Part shown: in pieces, positions 42,133 through 46,641 of the stretch
Layout of the letters: each line of letters starts with the position of its first letter
How positions within the stretch are numbered: the stretch's first letter is position 1
Source: Poseidonibacter lekithochrous
GTDB taxonomy: Bacteria; Campylobacterota; Campylobacteria; Campylobacterales; Arcobacteraceae
NCBI RefSeq assembly: GCF_018861145.1
Contig: NZ_JAHKQT010000004.1
Span: 62,001 to 126,000, forward strand
Length of the DNA stretch: 64,000 bases
Reading direction: 5' to 3'
Notes under the pieces: generated by a model
Databases searched by the model: none
What the model saw: only the letters and a program-made list of their open reading frames with translations
What the model was told of the DNA's origin: nothing
Position numbers and translations under genes: made by a program

Positions 42133-43842
42133 TTAAAAATTTTTACCATTAAAGTTATTCTTATTTACATTTTGAACAACATCTAAAGCAATATCATTTG
42201 TTTCATTAGCAATTGTATTTGCTTTATCTGCTACTACTGCATTTTCTTGAGTAAATCTATCTAATTGATTAATAGCATCAGAAACTTGAATCATTCCTTG
42301 ACTTTGTTCTTTAGCAGCATTAGTAACATCATCTATTAACTTATTAGTAGTTGATATTTTTTCTTCTAAAGTAGTAAACCCTTCAATCATTTCTATACTG
42401 ATTTTTTTACCTATATTTGTTTTATTAGTTGCATTTTCCACTAACTCTTTAATCTCTTTTGCCGCTTCAGCAGATCTATTTGCTAAGTTTCTTACCTCTT
42501 GGGCTACAACTGCAAAACCTTTTCCTGCTTCACCTGCAGTTGCTGCTTCAACAGCTGCATTTAATGAAAGAATATTTGTTTGAAATGCAATTTGATCAAT
42601 AACTGAGATAGATTCATTAATATAAAGAACTGTGTTATTAATATCTTCCATAGCTTTTACAGTGTCACTTGCCAGCTTTTGTCCATCATTTGCAGATGAT
42701 TTAGTATCATTTGATATATTTGACATCTCTTGAGCTTTTAAACTTGTTTTTTCAATATTACTTGTGATTTCATCAATAGATGCTGCAGTTTCTTCTAAGC
42801 TTGCAGCTTGTGATGTAGCATTATTTGATAATGTATTCACATTTTTTGTAAGCTCTTGAGCGCTTAATTGAAGAGAAGTTCCATCTTTTTGATTTGTTTG
42901 TAAAATATCAGTAATCATTTTATTCATTTCAATAATCTTAATACCTATATCTCCTGATGTTTTTGGATCTAAGGTTGCTGTAAAATCTCTTTGAGAATAT
43001 TTTGAAAGAACAGTAGTAAGACTATTTATATCTTTTCCTACCAAAGATTCTAAGTTATTCAACATATCATTTAAAAGATTTTTTAATAACTCAACATTTT
43101 CATTTGAAGTTGAACCTTCAATTCTATTTCCCATATTACCTTTATTTACTTCTTTTACAATATCAATTGTTGAGCTAATAATTACTTCACTCTCTTTTTG
43201 TTCTTCATTTATTTTAGCTATTGATTTTTCAGATTCAAACTGTAAACGCTTAGCTAATATAAATTGTTCAATAGTTGAAAATACAATATAAGCTAATAAA
43301 ACCACTTCAATTGCAAACATCACAACATGTAAGATTGTAATTTCCCAACTACATCCATAACTAAAATACATCAGTTGATAACCATTTATATCTATTTTAT
43401 TTAATTGAATAAAGGTAAATATAATATGCCCAAGTGCAGCTGTAACCGTAGCAGCTAATATTGCAGTTAAATCTTTATATACAGTTAATGCCGCAGCTAA
43501 GATAAAGTATCCAAAATGCATTTCAATCATTCCCATATTTTGGATAATCATAATTGAAGGATAACTCATTAAAACAATACCTGCAACTATTCTTGAAACG
43601 GCAGTACCTTTAAAAAACTTATATGAAATAAAAGTAATTAATAACAATGGTATACCACTTACAATACCTATTGCATAAGTATTATATGGAATAGAGGAAA
43701 CTGCTGTAATAATTACAAATAAGACAATAGAAAGTATTAATATATATTTATCGCTTTTAATATAATCAACAGTCAATGCATCTTTTATTTTTACATCTAA
43801 TTTTCTAGACATTGGGAAAAAAGTAAATAATTTTTCTAACAT
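42133..43842 (-). CDS. Methyl-accepting chemotaxis protein with multi-helix membrane sensor
   Basis: In this 569-residue receptor the first 200 residues hold about six membrane helices without a large periplasmic loop, so the sensed signal may be in the membrane or its redox state. A coiled-coil/HAMP-like connector and the conserved signalling domain (about residues 330-560) with [20 protein letters not shown] follow. It ends in NFNGKNF, related to the EFRGK end of the other receptor. The ATG overlaps the SCO gene stop (TAATG), so the receptor is translationally coupled to a copper/thiol protein. Confidence 0.9.
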
Positions 43843-44414
43843 TAATCATCCTTTAATATATTAGATATATCATTAGTAATCATCTTAAAATCATATGAAT
43901 TACTTAGATATACATATTTTTGTAAATATTTGTCTTCTTTTTTTTCTAGAAGGTATAAAAAACTTGAATGATTCATTTCTTCTTTATTAAATATTGATTT
44001 AGAAAAGCTTACTTTTAATTGACTCGTAACATTTAAAAGTTCCTTTTTATCAAGTACAATTGCATTAAAGTTTTTGTTAAATGAATGAACGTAATCTTTT
44101 GTATCTTTAGAGGATACTTCATCAAGCAGGTTTATAAAATATATAGAAACCTTATTCTTATCAACTTCCGAGTAGAGTTGATTAAGTCTATTTAAAGCTA
44201 AAACACAAACATCTGGACAATAAGTGTATCCAAAATATAAAAGAACAATAGGCTTATTCTCTTTTTGTAAAAATTTAAAATTTGTTGCTATTTTTTTTTC
44301 TACCTTTCCAGTATTATCGAAAAATACCAAAATGGAGTTTATAAGAAAGAACATTAAAAAAGTAATAAGAATTAAAAGTATTCCATATAACTTTTTTGAT
44401 TTAAATATATTCAT
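43842..44414 (-). CDS. SCO1/SenC/PrrC-family copper or thiol-redox protein
   Basis: The 190-residue product has an N-terminal membrane anchor (about residues 9-31) and a thioredoxin-like domain with the SCO copper site CPDVC (Cys66 and Cys70) and the third ligand in MNHSSF (His149). SCO proteins deliver copper to the CuA centre of cytochrome oxidase or act as thiol-disulfide reductases in the periplasm. The oxidase genes are not here. The gene is instead joined to a chemoreceptor gene by a one-base overlap, which is unusual. Confidence 0.9.
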
Positions 44415-44522: not shown

Positions 44523-45104
44523 CTATAGTAGATTAGAAATTAGTGTTCCAATATAGTTATTAGCTTCTTCTTTTGTTATACCAAACTCTAAGGCACCTTT
44601 TTTTACTTCTGCTTCTTTTAACTTAACTATTGAATTATCTTCATTAATCTTAAAAATAAAATATTTAGTTTGCGTATCATCTGTAATATTAAGTAATTTA
44701 GTAAAATTTCCACTTGAATCATTTACCATAGGAATATTAGAATTTATATTTAATTCTTCAAGTTTTCCATCTACTGCTAATTTTTTTATAAACCATGGAG
44801 TTTTAGAGATATTAGCAACTAATACTATATCTTTTCTATCCACAGTTTTTAAAGGCTCTATAAGAGATAGTGCATCATGGTTTAACACAATAATATATTT
44901 TCTATTTGCATTTTTAAATAAATCATTCTTTTTCATATATCCACCAACACCAATAACCTCAAAATGACTTGGAAATAAAGAAGTGTTTAACTTCATACTT
45001 TTATCGATTTTTGTATCTTTACTCGCTTGTTTAGGAGCAGTTAAGTATACTAATATACCAAAACCTATGATTGCTAAAAAAACTATTTTTAAAATATTTG
45101 CCAT
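44523..45104 (-). CDS. Membrane-anchored protein with thioredoxin-like fold, no cysteines
   Basis: The 193-residue product has one N-terminal membrane helix (about residues 5-23), then a soluble domain of about 160 residues outside the membrane. The pattern of strands, including RKYIIVLNHDA, KDIVLVANIS and a proline-containing IPMVNDSSGNFTKLL turn, resembles a thioredoxin/peroxiredoxin fold. It has no cysteine, so it cannot do thiol chemistry. The family is unknown to me. It lies about 110 bp upstream of the SCO gene on the same strand and may belong with it. Confidence 0.55.
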   Translation of the reverse strand: MANILKIVFLAIIGFGILVYLTAPKQASKDTKIDKSMKLNTSLFPSHFEVIGVGGYMKKNDLFKNANRKYIIVLNHDALSLIEPLKTVDRKDIVLVANISKTPWFIKKLAVDGKLEELNINSNIPMVNDSSGNFTKLLNITDDTQTKYFIFKINEDNSIVKLKEAEVKKGALEFGITKEEANNYIGTLISNLL

Positions 45105-45137: not shown

Positions 45138-46322
45138 TTAAGATTTTCTACTTTTTTGTTTCTTTGCCCATCTTTTAAATAAGCGATATATTGATATTGT
45201 GTCTTCAATTTTTTTATTATTTATTATATTTTCAACTAATTCATTTGCTAAATAAGGGGATAATACAAAACCTCTTCCGCCAACACCATTTAAAACATAA
45301 AGGTTTTCTATTTTATCTAACATCTCTTCTTTTATATGTGTTCCATTTATTAGATGAGGGAATTTATCAAAACTTTTTTTTGAATCAATTAGTCTCCCAA
45401 TCATTGGAAAATAATCAGTACTTGAAGCTCTTGCTCCAATTTTAACATCTATAACATTTACATCTTCTAATTTCATAATATCATTTGCTTTAGCTATTAA
45501 TTCTAGTGAATCCTTATCTGTAATATCTTTTGTATAACACTTAGAACAATCTTTATTCAGGTTTGCAACTTCTACACAATAATTACAAATACTCTTATCA
45601 CAGTTAAATCTATGATGAGTAGCACCTATTGACACTTTATATAAATCTTTTTCTTTAGTTTTAAAAGCTTTTGAGAGTGAACACTCTTTATGGTAGTTAA
45701 AATCAACGCAAGTGCTTGTTGTAATATCTATTTTTTGTCCCCAAACAGCTCTTATATCAAAATATTTTTCTTTGATTAATTCTGTATTAGCACCAGTACA
45801 AAGTATTAATTTTTTAGCTTTAATTTCATTGTTTAAAAGCCATGATTCATTTTCGTTAGCTATTGAAATTACATTATAGTTTAACTTCTGTTTAATATCT
45901 TTTGTTAGTAATTCACAAATTTCAGAAGGGTTAATCCACGAACCAATATCAAAAAAATATCCATCTTTTAACTCTTTATATTCAAAATCCATATAAGGTT
46001 TATAAGAATTAAACTTTTCTCTATCTTCATTATTTTTAGGAATTCTACATACTCCATCATTTGTAAAAGATTTACTATTAACTTCTTTATAAAAAGAAGT
46101 AGAAAAGTTTAAAGCTTTTCTTATTAAGTCTTTAAATTTATTAGGCTTACCTAATAATGGTGACAAAAAAGCACCAGCTGCACCACTTGCACCAAAAGCT
46201 ACTTTATCATTTTTATCAAGAAGTAAAACTGATGCTGAATATTTAGATAAAAAATATGCAGTAGAACTTCCAGCAATTCCAGCACCAATAATTACATAAT
46301 CATATTCTTCAATTTTAGACAT
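45138..46322 (-). CDS. FAD-dependent oxidoreductase like the C-terminal domain of MnmC, with added cysteine cluster
   Basis: The start chosen is the ATG at 46322 (MSKIEEYDYV), with GGAT five bases before it, giving 394 residues. The Rossmann motif IIGAGIAGSSTAYFL is followed by GASGAAGAFLSPLLGK, then WGQKIDI, GATHHRF, GARASSTDYFPMIGR and NGVGGRGFVLSPYLA. These fit the MnmC oxidoreductase domain, which removes the carboxymethyl group from cmnm5(s2)U34 in tRNA. The MnmD methyltransferase half is absent. Inserted after GATHHRF is a cluster of five cysteines (C-x4-C-x2-C-x9-C-x2-C, residues 241-262) that looks like a metal site. It overlaps the rhodanese gene by 8 bp. Confidence 0.75.
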   Translation of the reverse strand: MSKIEEYDYVIIGAGIAGSSTAYFLSKYSASVLLLDKNDKVAFGASGAAGAFLSPLLGKPNKFKDLIRKALNFSTSFYKEVNSKSFTNDGVCRIPKNNEDREKFNSYKPYMDFEYKELKDGYFFDIGSWINPSEICELLTKDIKQKLNYNVISIANENESWLLNNEIKAKKLILCTGANTELIKEKYFDIRAVWGQKIDITTSTCVDFNYHKECSLSKAFKTKEKDLYKVSIGATHHRFNCDKSICNYCVEVANLNKDCSKCYTKDITDKDSLELIAKANDIMKLEDVNVIDVKIGARASSTDYFPMIGRLIDSKKSFDKFPHLINGTHIKEEMLDKIENLYVLNGVGGRGFVLSPYLANELVENIINNKKIEDTISIYRLFKRWAKKQKSRKS

Positions 46323-46641
46323 TTTTATCCATTTCATCAAGTAGCTGATAATTAGGTCGCCAGTACCCTCTTCCTCCTCTTAAACTAATACATTTATAAT
46401 CAGGAAATTTCTTTTTATAATAAGACAATCTCTCTCTTGTAGTTTTTCCAGTATCACAATAAAAGACAAAAACAGAACCTTTTGGCATTAAATTCATTTC
46501 ATAAGGATTATATGTAATTGTTTCTATTCTATCAAGTGGCTTTAAAATAGTATCAATAAGAACAACTTGAATATTACTTTCTTCTAACTCTTTTGAATAT
46601 TTATATAACTCATTTTGTGTCCACTCATCTTTATTAAACAT
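46315..46641 (-). CDS. Rhodanese-like domain protein
   Basis: The 108-residue single-domain protein has the rhodanese active loop in VFYCDTGKTTRER (Cys near residue 62) preceded by the hydrophobic strand and followed by CISLRGGRGYW, as in other single-domain sulfurtransferases. It should carry a persulfide on that cysteine. The gene precedes and overlaps the MnmC-like gene by 8 bp, so the two are co-translated. Because MnmC acts on the same wobble uridine that is 2-thiolated, a role in sulfur supply for tRNA is possible, but this is inference. Confidence 0.8.
   Translation of the reverse strand: MFNKDEWTQNELYKYSKELEESNIQVVLIDTILKPLDRIETITYNPYEMNLMPKGSVFVFYCDTGKTTRERLSYYKKKFPDYKCISLRGGRGYWRPNYQLLDEMDKNV

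Follow-up and report, generated by a model that had tools for sequence, protein, structure and literature searches.

The window analyzed here (the whole 64,000-nucleotide stretch of Poseidonibacter lekithochrous DNA) contains a gene whose product is, with a probability of roughly 0.8, a divergent stand-alone MnmC oxidoreductase that would work alongside MnmD in trans, that bears an optional cysteine-containing loop and that is accompanied by a dispensable rhodanese. The protein is most likely an ordinary cmnm5U34-to-nm5U34 oxidase, with the loop being dispensable and possibly zinc-binding.

This mnmC(o)-like gene, recognized from its reading frame, from Pfam and NCBIfam searches and from profile alignment, spans positions 45138-46322 (minus strand, as for the overlapping gene and for all of the motifs considered below) and encodes a FAD-dependent oxidoreductase of 394 residues. 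Directly upstream lies a rhodanese-like gene (46315-46641), encoding a diverged single domain of 108 residues that was assigned on the basis of its frame, Pfam and a predicted model. Both frames are present where the original prediction had placed them, as is the 8-bp overlap between them (ATGTCTAA, 46315-46322), in which the stop codon of the rhodanese falls within the start of mnmC(o); the two genes also overlap in the closest homologs. The ATG start of mnmC(o) at 46322 is backed by homologs sharing 91 and 89% identity and the same first residue, rendering a longer frame beginning with TTG (to 46340) unnecessary. Elsewhere at the locus, positions 44523-45104 encode a 193-residue protein that matched nothing in Pfam or NCBIfam, with a similar-looking frame also being found downstream of mnmC(o) at two homologous loci (L036 and L060). 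Downstream of the 193-residue protein, a SCO1/SenC-like protein is encoded at 43842-44414.

In Pfam, the oxidoreductase matches the DAO superfamily (PF01266), while the best-scoring NCBIfam family is MnmC1 (TIGR03197; E 2.3e-43, 148.8 bits, residues 10-368), as compared to 59.9 bits for the next distinct family, ThiO. The likeness to the oxidoreductase half of MnmC that had been predicted is therefore real. Because the score of 148.8 bits lies below the curated TIGR03197 equivalog cut-off of 174.2, the protein is classed here among divergent MnmC(o)-type homologs and not as an NCBI equivalog; the MnmD and ThiO of the same genome likewise score below their own NCBIfam cut-offs. Homology to the C-terminal FAD domain of Escherichia coli MnmC, i.e., MnmC(o) or MnmC1 (TIGR03197; PDB 3awi and 3ps9), extends over the full length of the protein. 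In family-profile alignments, E. coli MnmC(o) scored 182 and fused campylobacterial MnmC(o) sequences scored 159-182, with the values for the same-genome paralogs DadA, LhgO and ThiO being 85, 58 and 33, respectively.

A tree that included ThiO, DadA and LhgO did not join the stand-alone family to E. coli MnmC(o) in preference to ThiO and DadA, with the outgroup branches reaching 4 to 7 changes per column. As this tree was indecisive, the identity of the oxidoreductase was judged from profile scores and hallmark residues. An AlphaFold2 model of the oxidase, generated from four sequences, had a mean pLDDT of 31.5. The hallmark set comprised those FAD-domain residues of MnmC listed as being more than 98% conserved in PMC3648344, together with Ser304. 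Eight of the nine E. coli MnmC residues tested, namely, G271, G273, S304, G518, R567, G578, G619 and R653, are kept as G13, G15, S46, G233, R298, G309, G351 and R380, respectively. The only one of the nine not kept is G287, described in PMC3648344 as lying near the interface between MnmC1 and the methyltransferase domain, MnmC2. G13 and G15 are part of the GxGxxG dinucleotide-binding motif (residues 13-18; 46269-46286), and R298 and G309 are part of the MnmC(o) signature GxRxxxxDyfPmiG (GARASSTDYFPMIG; 45396-45437). As such, the FAD motif, the FAD-site residues, this signature and the C-terminal R653 equivalent are all held in common with E. coli MnmC(o), whereas the protein considered here differs from E. 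coli MnmC in standing alone, in not keeping G287 and in presenting a cysteine-rich variable loop after a GATH motif.

Several of the kept hallmark residues are general to the superfamily. Moreover, the PF01266 superfamily is common to MnmC(o) and to amino-acid or amine oxidases of the ThiO, DadA or sarcosine oxidase type, the protein tree, with its very long outgroup branches, does not separate them, and the MnmC1 structure is close to that of glycine oxidase, according to PMC3648344, all of which would fit an oxidase of that sort and not a tRNA enzyme. Such an assignment is, however, distinctly unlikely, given that the family model and the profile scores prefer MnmC(o) by a wide margin, that ThiO and DadA already exist as separate genes in this genome, and that the oxidase co-occurs with MnmD in the Arcobacteraceae (see below). 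Furthermore, the R653 equivalent is present in 84 of 90 homologs, whereas at the position of R380, DadA contains a leucine, and ThiO and LhgO, the other two of the three paralogs tested, are without an aligned residue. ThiO glycine oxidase itself, which shares the fold superfamily and relies on similar chemistry, was rejected as the identity of the oxidoreductase, since the genome encodes a separate ThiO adjoining thiC that scores 248 bits with the ThiO model versus 41 bits with MnmC1. The oxidoreductase is most likely a divergent MnmC(o)-type homolog, predicted from these comparisons to catalyze the MnmC(o) reaction.

The 394-residue protein corresponds to the oxidase domain only. The contention that it occurs without the MnmD half is correct insofar as a MnmD domain is neither fused to it nor encoded alongside, yet does not extend to the genome as a whole, where a search for mnmD revealed a stand-alone version on another contig (PF05430, 76.2 bits versus a gathering threshold of 22). 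The best NCBIfam match of this MnmD is the MnmC2 model (91.5 bits), and the equivalents of F67, G68, G70, D178 and F180 are kept. The known stand-alone MnmD/MnmC2 of Aquifex aeolicus (DUF752) thus has its counterpart in this partner enzyme at another locus, and not in the gene considered here. MnmG and MnmA are also encoded in the genome, the latter as a separate gene.

When 399 genomes sampled from across the order were searched, matches to the oxidase query were found in 283 and matches to MnmD in 319. Each of the 44 oxidase-bearing Arcobacteraceae in this sample encodes MnmD as well; the three Arcobacteraceae listed as being without MnmD belong to a single genus and contain neither gene. 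Within the Campylobacterales, mnmC(o) and MnmD are as a rule encoded by separate genes, with fusion being limited to one sampled family (f10), the only one in the order sample where MnmD frames were long enough to represent fusions (about 610-655 residues); the MnmD frames listed outside this family are of about 160-350 residues. In families f5, f7, f8 and f22 and in genus g48 of family f20, some or all of the sampled genomes gave a MnmC(o)-like match and no PF05430 match. Such genomes may rely on a different methyltransferase or may have nm5U as the end point. Stand-alone MnmC1 orthologs were previously recognized from sequence, as related in the parts of PMC3648344 and PMC3936742 consulted, and these monofunctional proteins show the same split arrangement; neither a cysteine loop nor a rhodanese neighbor is described for them in those parts. 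In PMC3936742, E. coli MnmC(o) was also reported to show activity when produced in the absence of MnmC(m). A literature search combining Arcobacter and mnmC returned nothing. In other observations, three genomes of family f16 (G414, G434 and G449) each contain two mnmC(o)-like paralogs, e.g., loci L068 and L069 of G449, where the first contains a C-x3-C-x2-C loop and the second a loop without cysteines. At locus L067, from an Arcobacteraceae genome (G052), the mnmC(o) sequence clusters with those of families f11 and f16, reflecting either horizontal transfer or a stray contig.

In the pathway proposed, MnmE/MnmG would install cmnm5 on U34 and MnmA would thiolate C2. MnmC(o) would then use FAD to oxidize the Cα-N bond of cmnm5(s2)U34 in tRNA to yield nm5(s2)U34, which we infer to be methylated by the separately encoded MnmD, giving rise to mnm5(s2)U34.

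As originally predicted, the oxidase contains a C-x4-C-x2-C-x9-C-x2-C insertion that E. coli MnmC does not. The five cysteines (C241, C246, C249, C259 and C262; residues 241-262, 45537-45602) are found within a variable loop (residues 237-274; 45501-45614) that directly follows the invariant GATH motif, for which the E. coli counterpart is G518-A-S-Y. Across 90 homologs, the loop is 14-39 residues long and cysteines account for 6.2% of its residues, as compared to 1.5% elsewhere in these proteins, figures drawn from related sequences and not amounting to a formal test. The cysteine density of the loop is not a matter of chance, and the cluster itself is lineage-specific.

A survey of the cluster across homologous loci, picked by score and spread and not at random, showed it not to be conserved. 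All five cysteines are present in 13 of 69 Arcobacteraceae copies, a further 12 contain the first three with C-x4-C-x2-C spacing, and 27 have no cysteines in the loop at all. The copies from two congeners (L014 and L016; 76 and 75% identical to the protein considered here, respectively) are among those with none. In a tree from which the loop columns had been excluded, the possession of three or more cysteines underwent at least 14 changes. The proposal that the cluster defines a metal or Fe-S site is accordingly not supported, as closely related and otherwise conserved enzymes have lost some or all of it. From the sequences, a metal-binding knob is plausible, unlike a Fe-S or catalytic site on which the enzyme would depend.

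It is possible, albeit tentatively so, that the loop binds structural zinc and helps the stand-alone oxidase recognize tRNA or interact with MnmD, in place of the contacts that fusion would provide, a notion that would refine the MnmC(o) assignment and is compatible with it. The position of the loop, immediately after the conserved GATH/GASY strand that holds FAD-site residue G518, is in keeping with this idea, as is the recurrence of unrelated cysteine patterns (C-x3-C-x2-C, C-x2-C and C-x2-C-x3-C) at the same site in other lineages. Many copies, however, have loops of only 14-20 residues without any cysteine, and as such, the role of the loop cannot be a general one. In the MnmC(o) enzyme considered here, the cysteine-rich loop beside GATH would probably serve as a small, optional zinc-type knob, stabilizing the loop or making contact with tRNA and being gained and lost across lineages.

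The 108-residue product of the upstream gene scored 12.5 with PF00581, below the gathering threshold of 22.2, and is hence named rhodanese-like. When the siblings in an alignment were considered, eight of nine members matched PF00581 at E values of up to 1, with the best value being 6.6e-4. A rhodanese-type active-site loop, C62-DTGKTTRER (46429-46458), is present, with C62-DTGK being kept in no fewer than 90% of the 50 copies aligned. The predicted model is of low confidence (mean pLDDT 60), and a Foldseek search with it gave a best E value of 0.08 and Z of at most 6.0, with the higher-ranked matches being mostly rhodaneses. The protein shares the cysteine-containing active-site loop of single-domain rhodaneses, such as GlpE (PDB 1gmx) and the Staphylococcus aureus protein (3iwh), and its low-confidence model tentatively matches their fold, although it differs from them in its sub-threshold Pfam score. 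Taken as a sequence, it is weakly but recognizably rhodanese-like.

The overlap between the rhodanese gene and mnmC(o) is real and conserved. At 47 of 69 distinct Arcobacteraceae loci, the rhodanese immediately precedes mnmC(o), in most cases with an overlap, and in a second sample, all 12 rhodanese-positive Arcobacteraceae had it adjoining mnmC(o). The rhodanese was not found in nine genomes that keep mnmC(o) (G007, G008, G009, G014, G015, G016, G027, G044 and G102), and in the other families sampled, it is encoded at another locus and not beside mnmC(o). Outside the Arcobacteraceae, the rhodanese is next to a DUF309 gene at several of the loci examined; at three of these (L122, L123 and L124), the two genes overlap. 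At another locus (L055), a DUF309-like gene precedes mnmC(o) by no more than a few hundred bases.

The pairing with a rhodanese had been suggested as a possible coupling of the oxidase to the delivery of sulfur to tRNA. In the fullest form of this idea, a functional Fe-S or redox center would be formed by the five cysteines, with the rhodanese either feeding it or providing sulfur for tRNA, thereby coupling side-chain trimming to thiolation. The C-x2-C pairs and the cysteine enrichment of the loop, along with the overlapping rhodanese and its intact C62-DTGKTT-R loop, would be expected of such an arrangement. Still, it is highly unlikely, given the rarity of the complete cluster, the retention of the rhodanese in L014 and L016 despite their cysteine-free loops, the frequent changes in cysteine content, the nine mnmC(o) genomes in which the rhodanese was not found, and its placement elsewhere in other families. 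In a comparison of independent pairs, no association between the cysteine-rich loop and the rhodanese was seen, with the comparison having little power, as the rhodanese differs in fewer than six pairs. In addition, MnmA, encoded separately, is the actual 2-thiolase of the wobble uridine. Coupling of the oxidase to sulfur delivery is thus not upheld, and a pathway shared by the rhodanese and MnmC(o) is hypothetical. It is unlikely, if less so, that the loop arose repeatedly as a metal-binding module aiding tRNA recognition or MnmD docking in trans, with the co-translated rhodanese participating in the same wobble-uridine pathway in the Arcobacteraceae. For the stand-alone MnmC(o) favored here, the rhodanese-like protein would be co-translated in most Arcobacteraceae and not be required by the oxidase.

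In seeking other neighbors of mnmC(o), a gene that we take to be glyS (encoding the glycyl-tRNA synthetase beta subunit), named from sequence recognition and likeness among the loci and not from a family search, was found to immediately precede mnmC(o), in the same orientation, at 11 sampled loci from six families (L058, L063, L064, L065, L074, L075, L078, L083, L086, L087 and L088). At L063, the gene order is glyS, rhodanese, mnmC(o). That glyS adjoins mnmC(o) in several families independently speaks for a role in tRNA biology, with no need to invoke the rhodanese.

The find is mostly ordinary, being a known enzyme in stand-alone form, one that shortens a chemical group carried by the decoding base of tRNA, since the MnmD partner is encoded elsewhere in the genome and the cysteine cluster is a labile loop. 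As the cluster illustrates, a conspicuous motif can be mere decoration of such a loop. In most cases, Campylobacterales carry the two MnmC activities on different genes, thereby providing a naturally split oxidase for study; as of 2013, according to PMC3936742, the only natural single-domain protein with experimental proof was a MnmC(m) homolog.
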